Shown one piece after another: positions 47,140 to 55,193 of a DNA stretch of 64,000 bases (position 1 is its first letter; each line of letters opens with the position of its first letter). The translations under genes and the position numbers were made by a program. Below the pieces are notes generated by a model. It did no database searches. It was not told the origin of the DNA and saw nothing but the letters and a program-made list of their open reading frames with translations. This DNA comes from Caldilineaceae bacterium (lineage in GTDB: Bacteria > Chloroflexota > Anaerolineae > Caldilineales > Caldilineaceae): assembly GCA_026989655.1 (NCBI GenBank), contig JALSIX010000038.1, positions 1 to 64,000 on the forward strand. The letters are read 5' to 3'.

Positions 47140-47254
47140 GGTCGGGAACCGGCTTCCATCCACCCAGGAGCCGAGACGGTGGACCGGGTACGGCTGGACG
47201 ACTTACTCCCCGACTTTTTCCGTATGCTGTTATCTTAACACATGAGGTGAATCC

Positions 47255-48133
47255 ATGCATCTTTTGTCGCGAGGGCGGGCCAGGGCTCGGGAGCTGTGGG
47301 AGCGGGCGGTGACCGGGCTCTACTCCATGCCCTGGGTGATGCAGCTGTGGGCCCGCTGGGCGGTCCAGCGCAGCCAACGGCTGGATGCCTCGGCGGCCAT
47401 TCCCTTCGTTCCGTTCTCCGGGCCCTTGGCCCAGGCCCGGGCTGCCCTGGTCACCACGGCCGGGATCCACCTGCCCCATCAGCCTCCCTTCGACATGGAC
47501 GACCCGGAAGGCGATGCCTCCTATCGGGAGATCCCGGGGGACGTGGACCTGCGGACAGTGGTGATCACCCACAAGTACTACGACCATCGGGACGCGGACG
47601 CGGATCCCAACATCGTCTTCCCCCTGGACCACTTCCGCGATCTGGCCCGGCAGGGGGTCATCGGTGCGGTGAACCACCGCCATTTCAGCTTCATGGGCCA
47701 CATCGAGGGCCCCCATCTGGAGCGCCTGATCCAGGAGACCGGGCCGGAGGTGGCCGCGAAACTCCGGGCCGACCGGGTGGACTTCGCCTTTCTGACGCCG
47801 GCCTGAGGGCTCTGCAATCGGTCCGTGGGACTGATCGCACGTGCCATCGAGGCCATCGGGATCCCCACGGTGGCCCTCTCCATCGCCCGGGACCTGACCG
47901 CGGCCGTAGGCGTTCCCCGGGCCGTGTTCCTCAGGTGGCCCATGGGCCACCCCCTGGGCGAACCGCATCGTCCGGCCCAACAGCGGACGGTGATCTTCCT
48001 GGCCCTGCGCCTGCTGTTGGAGGCCGACGGCCCAGGCATCCTCCTGGAGCCCGGCCTGCGCTGGCGCCGGGAGACCTACCAGGAGCCCGACTGGGGCCTC
48101 CTGGCCCAGATCCCCGGGAGCAGATCGCCATGA
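47255..48133 (+). CDS. GrdB/PrdB-family reductase, predicted selenoprotein (Sec184)
   Basis: Read straight through an in-frame TGA at 47804-47806 this encodes 292 residues with selenocysteine at 184. The upstream 183 residues match the glycine/sarcosine/betaine and D-proline reductase selenoprotein B family: ARAALVTTAGIHLPHQPPFD, YREIPGDVDL, ITHKYYDHRDADADPNIVFPLD, VIGAVNHRHFSFMGHI. Directly after the TGA the frame gives GLCNRSVGLIARAIEAIGIP, the family's continuation, so the Sec lies in a U-x-x-C redox motif. A SECIS-like hairpin starts 6 bases after the TGA. The frame then stays open to 48133 and overlaps the next gene as ATGA. AGGTGA precedes the ATG. The substrate is unknown; the family reductively cleaves C-N bonds or acts as a thiol/selenol redox protein. 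Confidence 0.82.
47813..47839 (+). promoter_or_regulatory. Predicted bacterial SECIS hairpin
   Basis: In the mRNA UGC (47813-47815) pairs with GCA (47837-47839), A47816 faces C47836, and AUCGGUCC (47817-47824) pairs with GGACUGAU (47828-47835, one G-U) around the loop GUG (47825-47827). The loop starts 19 bases after the UGA, within the 16-37 base range reported for bacterial SECIS elements, and contains the GU expected at the loop start. SelB would bind here to direct Sec insertion. Confidence 0.72.
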
Positions 48134-48480
48134 ACGAACCGTCGAGACCTCCCCTCCGGGTCGACGGCGTCCTCTTCGCCTGGGCGGCCAATGTGCTGTT
48201 GGTGACCGCGGGCGTCTTCCTGGGCTCGATGTCCGGGGCGAATCTCCTGCTGCTTAACCTCACCGTGTTGGGGGGCGCATTGCTGGCCGGTCTCCTGACC
48301 GGGCTCTGGGTACGGGCTCGGGCAGCCATCCACGCCTTCCTCGGCGGCCTTCTCAGCGCGCCCATCTTGGCCCTGTGGATCCTGCCCAACACCAACTGGC
48401 GCTACGCCCTCCTGAGCGGGGCCCTCTGCGCGGTGGGGGGCATCCTGATGGAGATCCGAGAGCGTTCCCTCCGCTCCTGA
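48130..48480 (+). CDS. Small membrane protein of unknown function
   Basis: The 116-residue protein has about three to four hydrophobic segments (VLFAWAANVLLVTAGVFLG, LLLLNLTVLGGALLAGLLTGLWV, AFLGGLLSAPILALWIL, YALLSGALCAVGGILMEI). I do not recognise a family. Its ATG overlaps the selenoprotein stop (ATGA), so it depends on translation of that C-terminal part and probably works with it, perhaps as a membrane partner. Confidence 0.7.
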   Translation: MNEPSRPPLRVDGVLFAWAANVLLVTAGVFLGSMSGANLLLLNLTVLGGALLAGLLTGLWVRARAAIHAFLGGLLSAPILALWILPNTNWRYALLSGALCAVGGILMEIRERSLRS

Positions 48481-48584: not shown

Positions 48585-50339
48585 GTGAACGTCCTATCCG
48601 CCTTCGCTGAACTCCTCCTATCTCCGGTAGGGCCGCCGTTGGTCCTGGTGGCGGCGGTGCCAGCGGTCTGGATGGCCGGACGCCGGGCTGCCCGGGGAGA
48701 TGTGCCCCGGTGGGTGGCCCTGGGCTTCTGGGTGGTGGCCGTGTGGCAGACCATGGGCATGCGGTTCCAGGCCACGGTCCCCTCCTTTGCATGGCTCTGG
48801 CATCCTCTGGTCCTGGAGCCGGCCTACCTGTACTGGCTCATGGATGGCTGGAACTGGTACATCTCCTCCCTGCTCCTGTTGCTGGGCGGGGTGGCCCTGC
48901 TGCTGGGCGGTTTCGGGGTACCGGTCTCCCAGCTCTCCACCCGACGGGATCGGCTGGAACATGCCACCGTTCTCATGTCGTACCTGGGGTTGATGGCCGC
49001 AGGGCTGCTGTTCGTCAACAGCGGCAACCTCCTCACCCTCACCCTGACCTGGGTGGTGATGGACCTGGTCCTGCTCCTGCGCTACGCCCTGGTGCCCCAC
49101 GCAGAGTCGCCCACGGACGGGAAGGCCCCCCTGGGGACCGCCTACCGGGCCCAGGGCTTCAGCCTGCTGGGCGCCCTCTTGCTGCTGATTGGGCTCCTCC
49201 CGGCCGGCCCTTCCGGCCCGGGCCAGCCTCTGCTGGGGGGGACCCTGCCCATCGAGACGGTGATGCTCATGCTCTTGGCCGGCGCAGTGCGGGCCGGCGC
49301 CTACCCCTTCCACCTGTGGCTCCTGCCCTCGCCCCGACGCCACCTGAGGCTGGCCGATCGTTTCGTGGACCACATGGTACCGGCCCTGGCCGGCCTGTGG
49401 TTGTTGGGATGGGCCAGTGCCTTGGGCCGGGCCACAGCCCTTCTCTGGCGCCAGGAGTTCGTGGCCCTGGTGCTGATGGCCTTTCTGGCCAGTGCCGTGG
49501 CCGCGTTCACCGCCACGGAGAAGCCAGGCCACACCACCTTCGTCCTGATCACCTCCGTGGGCTCCGCGGCCATCACCAGCATCTTTGCCGAGGCCTCGGG
49601 TCCGGCCGCGGTGCTCTGGCCCACCACGGTCTTTGCCCTGGCCGGGGGCCTGTGGCTGGTAGGAGAGCGGATCTGGCAGGAATGGGGGTGGCAGCTTCCG
49701 GTGAGCCTGGGCGCCCTGGCCCTGCTGGGGGTTCCCTTCACCCCGGGCTTCTTCACCCAGTCCGCGGTGGCCCGCCTTCTCTCGGGGCAGTTTCTGGGCT
49801 CCCTGGTGTTGCCCTTCTTCCTCCTCTTCCTCATGGCCCAGACCTTCTTCGTGGCCGCGCTGCTGCGGAGCTGGGGCGCTCCGGGGCCGCAGCAGCCCTT
49901 CCAGGGGGTGTCCGGTCTCATGTGGGGGTTGCTCTTCTCCAGCATCATCCTGGCCATCCCCCTGGTCATCGCGGGCATCTTTCCCCAGGTCCTCACTCGA
50001 TTGGTCGGTCTGCGGGAGGCCATCCCCGCGGATGTGGGGACGCCCCCCAGCGCGGTGGCCGGCCCACCCGTGTGGGTGACCATGGGCATTCCGCTGGTCC
50101 TGGGGATCGGGCTGGCCCTCCTCCGCCAGAGCCTGTTTCGGACCATCACCGGGAGCCTGGGCAACTGGCCGCGGCGGTTCTCCCTCCTCTTCGGTCTGGA
50201 CTGGCTCTCCATGGGGATGGACCGGGCCATGCGGGGGATGACCACGGTGTGGGACAACGGCCTGGCTGTGCTGGAGGGAACCGGCCATCTGGGGTGGGTG
50301 TTGGTCTTCGTGGCCATGGGCGTGCTGTTCTTCCTGTAG
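48585..50339 (+). CDS. Polytopic membrane protein, distant NuoL/NuoM/Mrp antiporter-like
   Basis: The 584-residue protein is mostly membrane helices (about 13-15). The block AGAVRAGAYPFHLWLLPSP and the later GVPFTPGFFTQSAV correspond to NuoL/M segments around the lysine-bearing helix (PFHxWLPD) and the GxPxxxGFxxK helix, but the usual lysine and histidine-rich motifs are changed (Arg at the first site). It is therefore a divergent relative, not a standard complex I subunit. GTG at 48585 appears leaderless. First of three adjacent membrane genes. Confidence 0.65.
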   Translation: MNVLSAFAELLLSPVGPPLVLVAAVPAVWMAGRRAARGDVPRWVALGFWVVAVWQTMGMRFQATVPSFAWLWHPLVLEPAYLYWLMDGWNWYISSLLLLLGGVALLLGGFGVPVSQLSTRRDRLEHATVLMSYLGLMAAGLLFVNSGNLLTLTLTWVVMDLVLLLRYALVPHAESPTDGKAPLGTAYRAQGFSLLGALLLLIGLLPAGPSGPGQPLLGGTLPIETVMLMLLAGAVRAGAYPFHLWLLPSPRRHLRLADRFVDHMVPALAGLWLLGWASALGRATALLWRQEFVALVLMAFLASAVAAFTATEKPGHTTFVLITSVGSAAITSIFAEASGPAAVLWPTTVFALAGGLWLVGERIWQEWGWQLPVSLGALALLGVPFTPGFFTQSAVARLLSGQFLGSLVLPFFLLFLMAQTFFVAALLRSWGAPGPQQPFQGVSGLMWGLLFSSIILAIPLVIAGIFPQVLTRLVGLREAIPADVGTPPSAVAGPPVWVTMGIPLVLGIGLALLRQSLFRTITGSLGNWPRRFSLLFGLDWLSMGMDRAMRGMTTVWDNGLAVLEGTGHLGWVLVFVAMGVLFFL

Positions 50340-50391: not shown

Positions 50392-51138
50392 ATGTCCGAG
50401 CTGACCGGCGTGTGGCCGTGGAATGCCCTGTACGGGCTCCTGGCCGGTTTCATGGGGCTGTGGGTCCTCTGGTGGAACTTTCGGGGCCTGTTGATCGGCC
50501 TGTCCCTGCTCCAACTGGGGCTGGGCCAGGTCATGGTCCAGCGCTACGATATGGAGATGCGTTGGGCCCTGGTCCTGGGGGCCGTGACCGTCATCGCCTG
50601 CGCCATCCTGGCCCTCACCGCGGAGCAGCGGAGCCCCCATTCCTGGACTCCGCCCATGCCCCGGCTGTTCCGGGGGCTGCTCCTGGCCCTGTTGGTGGGG
50701 GGCGTCCTGGCCGTGGACCTGGGGGAACACCTTCCCCTGGTGGACGGTGCCACCGCCCGTCTCCTGATCGGAGTGGCCCTGACCGGCTTCCTGATCCTGG
50801 CCTGGACCGACGATCCCCTCTACGTCGCGGTGGGGCTGCTCCTGTGGATGATGCCCAGCCAGCTCTTCCTGGCCCTAGCCCTGCCCGTGCCCATCCTCGC
50901 TGTGCTGCTCAACGGGGTGATCCTGGCCGCGGTGTTGGCCTGCAGCTACCTGGCCCTGGCCGGAGACGTGGAGCTGGCCATGCGCTCTCGTCCCTTGACG
51001 GACATCGCCTTTCCCGAGCCCGCGCGGGGGGAGCCAGCCGCCGCGAGGTCTTCGGTGCCCGGGCTCCTGGGCGGGCGTTCCGCTCCCATCCGACGTTGGC
51101 GTCAGTTCGGGGCACAGCTACGTCGGGCCCTTCGCTGA
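50392..51138 (+). CDS. Membrane protein of unknown function
   Basis: The 248-residue product has about six hydrophobic segments between residues 10 and 195, then a basic cytoplasmic tail (RSAPIRRWRQFGAQLRRALR). Its position between two NuoL/N-like genes suggests a small complex partner in the manner of NuoK/MnhC, and ARLLIGVALTGFLILAWTDD loosely fits, but I cannot assign a family. It lies 52 bases after the preceding gene and 15 bases before the next. Confidence 0.6.
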   Translation: MSELTGVWPWNALYGLLAGFMGLWVLWWNFRGLLIGLSLLQLGLGQVMVQRYDMEMRWALVLGAVTVIACAILALTAEQRSPHSWTPPMPRLFRGLLLALLVGGVLAVDLGEHLPLVDGATARLLIGVALTGFLILAWTDDPLYVAVGLLLWMMPSQLFLALALPVPILAVLLNGVILAAVLACSYLALAGDVELAMRSRPLTDIAFPEPARGEPAAARSSVPGLLGGRSAPIRRWRQFGAQLRRALR

Positions 51139-51153: not shown

Positions 51154-52587
51154 ATGGTGGCCATCCCCTACTTCAATCTGCTGTTCCTGGGCCTGGTCGG
51201 GCTCGCGTCGACGGCCTTCCTGGGCCGCACGCGCCCGCGGGGGGCCGCGTGGGTCGGTGGCATGGGCCACCTGGTGCTGGCTGGCCTCACCGGCGCGGTC
51301 CCCCACGAGGGTGTGCTGCGCCTTGCCCCGACGGGTGTCCTGACCGTGGACGCCACGGTGGACTTCCGGGTGGGGGGGCTCGTCTTTCGGCTGCTCCAGA
51401 TCAACCAACCCCTGGCTGCCCTGATCCTGGGGGTGACCGGGGTGGCGTTGGTCCTGATGGCCCTGAGCCCGACGGTGGATGTCTCCTTCACAGTATGGGC
51501 CCCGATCCTGGCCGGGGCCATGGTCTTCCTGGCCCTTCTGGACACCGCTCCCCTGGAACCGGCTCTGCTCTACCCCTTGGGCCTGTCCGGTGTCCTGGTG
51601 TTGGCCGCCTTCGGCCTCCAGGGCAACCGGGTGGGCAATGTCCAGGGTCCTCTGCGCATCTTGGTCCTGCCCCTGTTGGCCGCGCCCTTCTTCCTCCTGG
51701 CCGCGTGGTATGTGGAGCAGTTGAGCCTGACCCCCCAGGTCCAGGAGATGGCCGTGGCCGCGGGATACCTGTGGACCCTGGGGCTCCTGGTCCTGCTGGC
51801 ACCGGTGCCCCTCCATGGGAGCCAGAGCGGGCTCCTGGCCTGGGTATGGTCGATTCCGGGGACATGGCTTCTCCTGACCTACCAGTTGGCCGTGGTCTCC
51901 CTGTTCTACCAGGGCGAGACGGCCTTTCTCTTCCTGCTGGAGGTCTCCACCCCGCTCAAGCTGTGGCTGGCCGTGTTGGGCATGGTCACCGCGATCTGGG
52001 CGGGGATCGCCGCGACCGGCACGGGCCATCCGGGACGCCTGGTCGGATATGCCCTTCTCTACGAATGGGGGCTGATCCTGCTGGTGATGGCCACCCCAGG
52101 CCCCCAGAGCTGGCCCCTGGTGGTCTTCCTCCTGGTCTCCCGGGCGGTGAGTGGTTTCGTGGCCGCGTTGGGCCTGGCCAACCTGGAGCTCGGCCCGGGG
52201 GCCAGGGACGAGCACCTGGACGGGATCGGCAGCCGCCGCCCCTGGAGCAGCGCTGCAGTGCTCATGGGGGGGCTGGGCCTGGCCGGGTTTCCCCTCACCG
52301 CGGGCTTCACCGGCCACTGGGCCGCCCTCCAATCCCTGGCCACCCAGGACTGGCGCATCGCGGCGGTGGTGCTGATCGCGGGGGCCGGGGTGGTGTTCGG
52401 GTTCGTCCGCCTGGCCCGACGGCTGTTCAGCGGGCAGCCTGCCGTCCCGGGATGGGCCGTGGCCCGGGAGCCTCTTCGGGCCTCTGTGGTGGCCGGCGCG
52501 GCCCTGGTCATCGCCGGGAGCCTCGCGCTCGCGCCCCAGCTTCTGAGCACTCCCCTGGCCTGGGCCCTCACCGCCTTCGGCTACTGA
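51154..52587 (+). CDS. NuoN/NuoM-like membrane protein
   Basis: The 477-residue protein has about 12-14 hydrophobic segments. The motif GGLGLAGFPLTAGFTGHWAAL near residue 370 is the clearest link to the proton-conducting NuoN/M/L family (LAGxPxTAGFxGK), with His in place of the usual lysine. The earlier YALLYEWGLILLVMA matches the preceding helix of that family. Together with the two upstream genes it forms a complex-I-like membrane module with none of the peripheral redox subunits nearby. Confidence 0.68.
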   Translation: MVAIPYFNLLFLGLVGLASTAFLGRTRPRGAAWVGGMGHLVLAGLTGAVPHEGVLRLAPTGVLTVDATVDFRVGGLVFRLLQINQPLAALILGVTGVALVLMALSPTVDVSFTVWAPILAGAMVFLALLDTAPLEPALLYPLGLSGVLVLAAFGLQGNRVGNVQGPLRILVLPLLAAPFFLLAAWYVEQLSLTPQVQEMAVAAGYLWTLGLLVLLAPVPLHGSQSGLLAWVWSIPGTWLLLTYQLAVVSLFYQGETAFLFLLEVSTPLKLWLAVLGMVTAIWAGIAATGTGHPGRLVGYALLYEWGLILLVMATPGPQSWPLVVFLLVSRAVSGFVAALGLANLELGPGARDEHLDGIGSRRPWSSAAVLMGGLGLAGFPLTAGFTGHWAALQSLATQDWRIAAVVLIAGAGVVFGFVRLARRLFSGQPAVPGWAVAREPLRASVVAGAALVIAGSLALAPQLLSTPLAWALTAFGY

Positions 52588-54140: not shown

Positions 54141-55193
54141 ATGTTGAACCAACCTGCGTTTCCCGTGGGCATCGTGGGCTACGGCGCGTACATTCCCCGC
54201 TACCGGCTCCCCGGCTCGGAGATCAGCCGGGTGTGGAGCGGCGGCGCGGAGAGGAGCCCGGTGAAGGAGAAGGCCGTGCCCGGCCTGGACGAGGACACGG
54301 CCACCATGAGCATCGAGGCGGCCCGCAACGCCCTGGCCCGGGCCGCCATCGATCCCACCCACATCCGCGCGGTGTGGGTGGGCAGCGAGAGCCACCCCTA
54401 CGCGGTGAAGCCCACCGGCACCATCGTGGCCGAGGCCATCGGCGCGATCCCGGCCACCCAGGCCGCGGACTGGCAGTTCGCCTGCAAGGCCGGTACCGAG
54501 GCGCTCCAGGCTGGGATGGGATTCGTGGGCAGCGGCATGGCCGCCTATGTGCTGGCCATCGGCATGGACACGGCCCAGGGCCGCCCTGGGGATGCCCTGG
54601 AGTACACCGCCGGCGCAGGGGGCGCGGCCTTCCTCCTGGGCCCTGCCGAGGAGGCAGTGGCCGTTGTCGAACGGAGCCTGAGCTATGTCTCGGACACCAC
54701 GGATTTCTGGCGGCGGCCGGCCACCCACTACCCCAGCCACGCGGAGCGCTTCAGCGGCGATCCCGGCTACTTCGGCCACGTGGTCCCGGCCGCCCGTCGG
54801 ATGATGGAGCTCGTGGACACCGCTCCCCAGGACTACGACCACGTGGTGGTCCACCAGCCCAACGTGAAGTTCCCGGTACGGGCCATGAGCCAGCTGGGCT
54901 TCACCCCGGCACAATGGCGGGCCGGGCTGTTGGTGCCCGAGATCGGCAACACCTACGCGGGATCTGCCCTGGTCGGGTTGACGGCCATCCTGGACGAGGC
55001 CGAACCCGGGCAGACCATCCTCATGGTGTCCTACGGCAGTGGAGCCGGCTCGGATGCCTTCCACATCCGGGTGACGGAGCGGATCCGGGAAGTACAGGGG
55101 AGGGCACCCCGGACCTGGGACTACATCCGGCGACGGGTGGCCATCGACTACGCGCTCTACGTGCGTTACCGGGGCAAACTGGCCGCCCGGTAA
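54141..55193 (+). CDS. Hydroxymethylglutaryl-CoA synthase, archaeal type
   Basis: It condenses acetyl-CoA and acetoacetyl-CoA into HMG-CoA. The 350-residue product has archaeal-type features: [15 protein letters not shown] at the N terminus, [17 protein letters not shown] (catalytic Glu83), [14 protein letters not shown] with nucleophile Cys115, [11 protein letters not shown] with the catalytic histidine, and [14 protein letters not shown]. Archaeal operons usually add a thiolase and a DUF35 protein; neither is here. CGGAGG precedes the ATG, 69 bases after mvaA. Together they supply mevalonate for isoprenoids. Confidence 0.94.

Follow-up and report, generated by a model that had tools for sequence, protein, structure and literature searches.

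A PrdB-like selenoprotein of the Caldilineaceae predicted to act without a PrdA partner

The window analysed here, the whole stretch of 64,000 nucleotides under study, lies on contig C38 of a 4.09 Mb assembly that consists of 150 contigs and is 99% complete. At 47255-48133 it carries a gene that ordinary gene calling would truncate after residue 183, with loss of the predicted active site. We read its product as a PrdB-like selenoprotein in which UGA184 specifies selenocysteine (Sec) within a UxxC redox motif, and which is neither a D-proline nor a glycine reductase and probably acts on some other substrate; we put the probability of this joint reading at roughly 0.8. The features of the gene are as follows.

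47244-47249, + strand: GAGGTG, Shine-Dalgarno-like, 5 bases upstream of the ATG (read directly from the sequence)
47255-48133, + strand: gene for the predicted PrdB-like selenoprotein, PF07355 superfamily, 292 aa with Sec184; 15 orthologues
47804-47806, + strand: in-frame TGA, codon 184 (predicted Sec184), which opens U-G-L-C; sole interruption of the frame, TGA in 15/15 orthologues
47813-47815, + strand: Cys187, presumed resolving Cys of UxxC, invariant in alignments of 22 and of 67 sequences
47813-47839, + strand: SECIS-like hairpin with a TGC/GCA base stem, an 8-bp ATCGGTCC/GGACTGAT stem and a GTG loop

Decoding of UGA184

The frame starts with the ATG at 47255 and comprises 292 codons plus a terminal stop, itself a TGA (48131-48133), and its end overlaps the ATG of the next gene (at 48130) as ATGA. 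Codon-position GC content is alike on the two sides of the internal TGA (GC1/2/3 of 0.72/0.46/0.87 before it and 0.74/0.54/0.88 after it). Among 36 further genomes from this family, mostly MAGs labelled Caldilineaceae (Chloroflexota), 15 contain a full-length orthologue (56-68% identical), and every one of the 15 has TGA at codon 184. Their identity to the window protein is 49-61% before the TGA and 63-76% after it, so the downstream part is at least as constrained as the upstream part.

A wider scan, covering 84,980 species genomes, used as its query only residues 46-183, which lie upstream of the UGA. It returned 196 relatives, 80 of which were kept, and the column holds TGA in 80/80 of these (14 of the 80 are the same family-level orthologues again). 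Together with 30 PrdB-like loci from a phylum survey they make up 110 wider relatives, in which the codon 184 column is Sec in 95, Cys in 15 and any other residue in none. The commonest motif among the relatives is UG(L/I)CN(Q/R)SVG, and the Cys forms read CPLCHR. Strains of Pelovirga terrestris, Geothermobacter hydrogeniphilus and Desulfatitalea alkaliphila belong to the relatives with the gene. A TGA shared by 15/15 full-length orthologues and 80/80 scanned relatives lies far outside what chance would give.

The DNA that follows the UGA is conserved beyond the needs of the protein and contains a covarying SECIS-like hairpin. This hairpin begins 6 bases 3′ of UGA184, and its RNA (47813-47839) can be written UGC-A-AUCGGUCC-GUG-GGACUGAU-C-GCA. 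Synonymous sites are nearly invariant over codons 188-195 in the orthologue alignment, and the 12 codons from 184 have an identical-codon fraction of 0.78, the highest in the gene (mean 0.49, sd 0.07). Across 16 sequences 99.4% of the hairpin's pair cells are standard, a figure that falls to 23-46% when the partner is shifted by 1-3 columns, and at three loci (L019, L022 and L023) a joint U-A to C-G change has occurred at the cost of an Ile to Val replacement. The apical stem recurs in 67 loci of other groups with GC/AU, UA/UG/GC/AU and UA/CG exchanges. A single-sequence fold of the hairpin region is modestly better than those of shuffled sequences (z -2.0), and Rfam gave no match for the region at gathering score.

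The genome also encodes the selenocysteine machinery: SelB on C65 (325 bits, cut-off 242), SelA on C86 (582 bits), SelD on C118 (332 bits) and, on C109, a tRNA-Sec with anticodon TCA (73.6 bits; ARAGORN agrees). We note that the SelD gene (C118:17962-18957) has an in-frame TGA of its own, in the motif ACAGUASK. Strong SelB matches were found in 78 of the 83 Sec-bearing genomes of the phylum survey, a comparison that discriminates little because SelB is above its cut-off in 307 of 400 Chloroflexota genomes.

The gene had first been proposed to encode a selenoprotein in a sequence-only reading, from the continuous frame with its single TGA at 47804, the U-G-L-C motif and the ATGA overlap, all of which are present as described. 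That reading expected Sec or Cys at this position in homologues, and this is what 110/110 wider relatives have; it looked to the genome for selA, selB, selC and selD, and all four are there; and it named a misread codon as one possible refutation, which the recurrence of the same TGA in independent genomes makes very unlikely. The conserved TGA, the Sec/Cys column, the putative SECIS and the Sec machinery all bear out the selenoprotein call, and UGA184 is almost certainly decoded as selenocysteine. The competing idea that UGA184 is a genuine stop or an error, giving a truncated pseudogene or a misassembled Cys or Trp codon, agrees with standard calling, which yields a 183-aa ORF ending at the TGA, but the recurrence of the TGA in 15 orthologues from independent assemblies and in 80 partly overlapping kept contigs, purifying selection downstream of it, SECIS covariation and a full Sec machinery leave it a negligible chance, and we rejected it. 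Reassignment of UGA was likewise rejected on the conserved TGAs, the SECIS and the Sec machinery; the gene itself terminates in TGA.

Relationship to PrdB, GrdB and D-proline reductase

By its profile matches the predicted protein is a member of the selenoprotein B superfamily (PF07355) that is nearest to PrdB. The Pfam PF07355 match (39.2 bits, gathering cut-off 22) ends just before the Sec, and the best NCBIfam match is to PrdB, TIGR04483, with 151.7 bits (E 2e-44). The equivalog cut-off of that model, 300 bits, is reached neither by the window protein nor by any of the 400 Chloroflexota genomes; the GrdB equivalog gives 56 bits against a cut-off of 602, and GrdF and GrdH are also far under theirs.

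An AlphaFold model of the read-through product, with 67 relatives as input, has a mean pLDDT of 94.6 and a pTM of 0.92 and predicts one continuous, well-folded PrdB-like domain, with Sec184 between a strand (177-181) and a helix (187-200). The PDB held no match by sequence, a profile search of it gave matches at chance level only, and Foldseek with the model found no match at E <= 0.001. The best VIA-align hits (Z 8.7) were LacI-type domains, which we did not accept as fold relatives, this score reflecting a common alpha/beta arrangement.

We compared the protein with the annotated PrdB of Peptoclostridium and Ligilactobacillus and with an unannotated Acetoanaerobium copy. Like these three, it has a single domain with a U-G-x-C motif and homology over about 215 residues (33-39% identity), with UGA in the same column (LTAGUGTCHR in PrdB, LTPAUGLCNR here). 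Unlike them, it has half the equivalog score, occurs in a genome with no PrdA and lies on a separate branch of the tree; its pre-Sec motifs are ITHxYYDH and MGHI, where PrdB has VSHGGYDN and MGGGGD. With GrdB, GrdF and GrdH (PF07355) it shares a homologous Sec-bearing C-terminal part, but their first ~200 profile positions are missing here, and the genome is without a GrdE-type partner. A stand-alone homologue on a Roseomonas plasmid, named "Glycine/sarcosine/betaine reductase selenoprotein B family protein", is 33% identical; it has CPVC in place of UGLC, and so Cys rather than Sec, and falls on another branch of the tree.

The tree comprises 122 sequences and is anchored by the three Firmicutes PrdB only. 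GrdB lies outside (support 100), the three Firmicutes PrdB form one branch (86), and 116 relatives including the window protein are set apart from them with an SH-aLRT of 97. The window protein groups with its own bacterial family in a 16-member clade, which is nested in a 78-member UGxCN group (95). These sequence comparisons show that it belongs to a subfamily that stands alone, differs from clostridial PrdB and occurs in several phyla. The motif holds Sec or Cys throughout this subfamily. Relatives at L026, L028, L032-L034 and L036-L038 have a second PrdB-like selenoprotein with TGA in the motif UPVCHVSVG; this one has an N-terminal extension and occupies a separate branch.

The PrdA/GrdE pyruvoyl partner (PF09338) has no match in the genome, which is 99% complete. 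The same search was positive in 9 of 400 related Chloroflexota genomes. PrdB-like proteins are far commoner, with 100 of the 400 genomes carrying them; therefore, most Chloroflexota PrdB-like proteins stand alone. GrdA (PF04723) gave no match in the genome in a search whose positive control was also without a match. The earlier claim that the gene sits outside the amino-acid-reductase operons is correct, and extends to the lack of PF09338 in the whole genome; the setting is nevertheless less unusual than that claim implied, Sec-containing "PrdB" having long been abundant in marine surveys (below).

Could the protein still be the true PrdB subunit of a D-proline reductase, with its PrdA encoded elsewhere? 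TIGR04483 is after all its best family match (151.7 bits), and the TGA is in the same column as in three Firmicutes PrdB of 33-39% identity. We nonetheless consider this very improbable, given a score at half of the 300-bit cut-off, the position outside the sampled PrdB clade, the replacement of the VSHGGYDN and MGGGGD motifs, and the absence of PF09338 from a 99% complete genome in a search that does find it in 9 of 400 related ones. Identity as D-proline reductase was rejected on the score, the tree and the missing PF09338. Among the Firmicutes themselves, the Ligilactobacillus salivarius plasmid PrdB (L183:2929-3654) has its TGA at codon 151 and lies in a prdA-prdB-prdD operon. A Peptoclostridium acidaminophilum plasmid (L180:3944-4657) carries an annotated prdB with a TGA; the 4 kb that flank it at each end hold no prdA, so Firmicutes may also have copies that stand alone.

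The superfamily is a long-known one, and its "PrdB" selenoproteins were abundant already in the surveys of 2005-2008. In the Sargasso Sea survey (PMC1088965) Sec-containing "PrdB" with UxxC is the third most abundant selenoprotein family (42 sequences), and the GOS survey (PMC2398784) gives it 235 members. These "proline reductase PrdB" entries are UxxC Sec proteins like the one described here, and the available text of the two surveys does not separate PrdA-independent forms from the rest. A list from 2006 (PMC1794560) assigns "proline reductase" selenoproteins to Anaeromyxobacter and Geobacter, and UxxC proteins of PF07355 and TIGR04483 are included in a 2026 review (PMC13188914). In the part of the literature that we covered we found no description of Chloroflexota PrdB-like selenoproteins as mostly lacking PrdA and forming their own branch. 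Since they are mostly without PrdA and have their own branch, they should not be named proline reductase; that usual name implies proline fermentation, which is impossible for PrdA-less genomes such as this one. We think it probable, with somewhat less assurance than for the window protein itself, that a large family in the Chloroflexota, Thermodesulfobacteriota, Myxococcota, Nitrospirota and Methylomirabilota, probably counted until now as "proline reductase PrdB", is independent of the PrdA pyruvoyl group and reduces a different substrate.

Proposed function and gene neighbourhood

D-proline reductase holds its substrate on the pyruvoyl group of a partner protein; the selenolate of PrdB is proposed to attack it there, after which cleavage by a thiol leads to a selenenylsulfide, a scheme that the source review itself terms hypothetical (PMC10298544). 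The protein described here retains the Sec and the Cys that presumably resolves, but its genome offers no PrdA/GrdE pyruvoyl partner. A pyruvoyl-held substrate would thus be unavailable to it, and so the protein would be neither a D-proline nor a glycine reductase. The simplest and most likely interpretation is a self-sufficient selenol/thiol oxidoreductase of the UxxC type, independent of PrdA. Both the motif and the replacement of its Sec by Cys in some relatives suggest that the U-x-x-C pair, where the helix begins, is the catalytic centre. Sec184 would attack a small or protein-bound electrophile, Cys187 would resolve the product to give a selenenylsulfide, and a cellular dithiol would reset the Sec184/Cys187 pair. 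The substrate is probably different from D-proline and glycine, or may be a protein disulfide; the suggestion in the sequence-only reading that it would be a new one is plausible. Finding it could provide a function, where PrdA is lacking, for the PrdB-like selenoproteins, a group near the top of marine surveys from 2005 onwards, and would reveal what chemistry PrdB can perform without a pyruvoyl partner.

Downstream of the gene in the window lie the following genes.

48130-48480, + strand: small membrane protein, 116 aa, about 3 TM; ATGA overlap with the selenoprotein gene
48585-50339, + strand: antiporter-like membrane protein, 584 aa, about 13 TM; no match in Pfam or NCBIfam
50392-51138, + strand: membrane protein, 248 aa; linked in most relatives
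51154-52587, + strand: NuoN/Mrp-like proton-antiporter protein, 477 aa; PF00361
52698-54071, + strand: HMG-CoA reductase, TIGR00532 type, from family match and linkage in relatives
54141-55193, + strand: HMG-CoA synthase, archaeal type; TIGR00748

The segment 48585-52587 thus holds three consecutive antiporter- or complex-I-like membrane genes, two of them without a significant Pfam match. The gene for the 116-aa protein, which has no family match in Pfam or NCBIfam, follows immediately, in the same orientation, in 14 of 15 relatives; the contig of the fifteenth stops there. Within this bacterial family the selenoprotein is probably co-translated with it, and may sit near the membrane through it. 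The antiporter/HMG-CoA block is linked to the selenoprotein gene in 11 of the 15 relatives, once on the other side.

This linkage of the 116-aa gene (14/15) and the block (11/15) would fit a selenoprotein that serves a membrane or isoprenoid pathway of this bacterial family together with the products of the antiporter-like and mevalonate genes, a role that we hold to be unlikely. Of 37 family genomes 36 encode the 584-aa protein, and roughly 20 of those 36 are without a selenoprotein orthologue; block and selenoprotein gene are on different contigs in three relatives, and the 116-aa protein was not found beside relatives of the selenoprotein outside the bacterial family.

In other phyla the neighbour tallies gave no recurrent reductase partner, and neighbourhoods vary by phylum, so that no shared partner points to the substrate. 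The neighbours there include a DUF3641 radical SAM protein, a metallophosphoesterase, a VTT protein and a mercuric-reductase-like flavoprotein, and often none recurs. Some of these settings bring to mind a selenoprotein that handles soft metal(loid)s or electrophiles: outside the family the gene can lie near YHS-domain or other metal-type P-type ATPases (L158, L125, L169, L170, L121 and L161), several of them co-directional and sometimes accompanied by a cytochrome c, and in Methylomirabilota it adjoins the DUF3641 radical SAM gene, VTT proteins and the mercuric-reductase-like flavoprotein. These are a minority of loci, in part from closely related genomes, and no such genes lie beside the selenoprotein gene in the window or in its bacterial family; such a role is possible but doubtful, about as much so as the previous one. 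A PrdA-independent UxxC oxidoreductase acting on some other substrate is the reading that we prefer to both.

At L121, L125, L158, L169 and L170 the selenoprotein gene is preceded, immediately or at a short distance, by the P-type ATPase gene (with a YHS domain where it is complete), and at L125 and L169 a cytochrome c gene lies between the two. In the Methylomirabilota loci L146 and L151 the gene directly upstream is that for the DUF3641 radical SAM protein (Pfam-tested in L151 only), which we take to be of the arsenosugar type, and in L146 this pair is preceded by an ArsM-looking methyltransferase gene.
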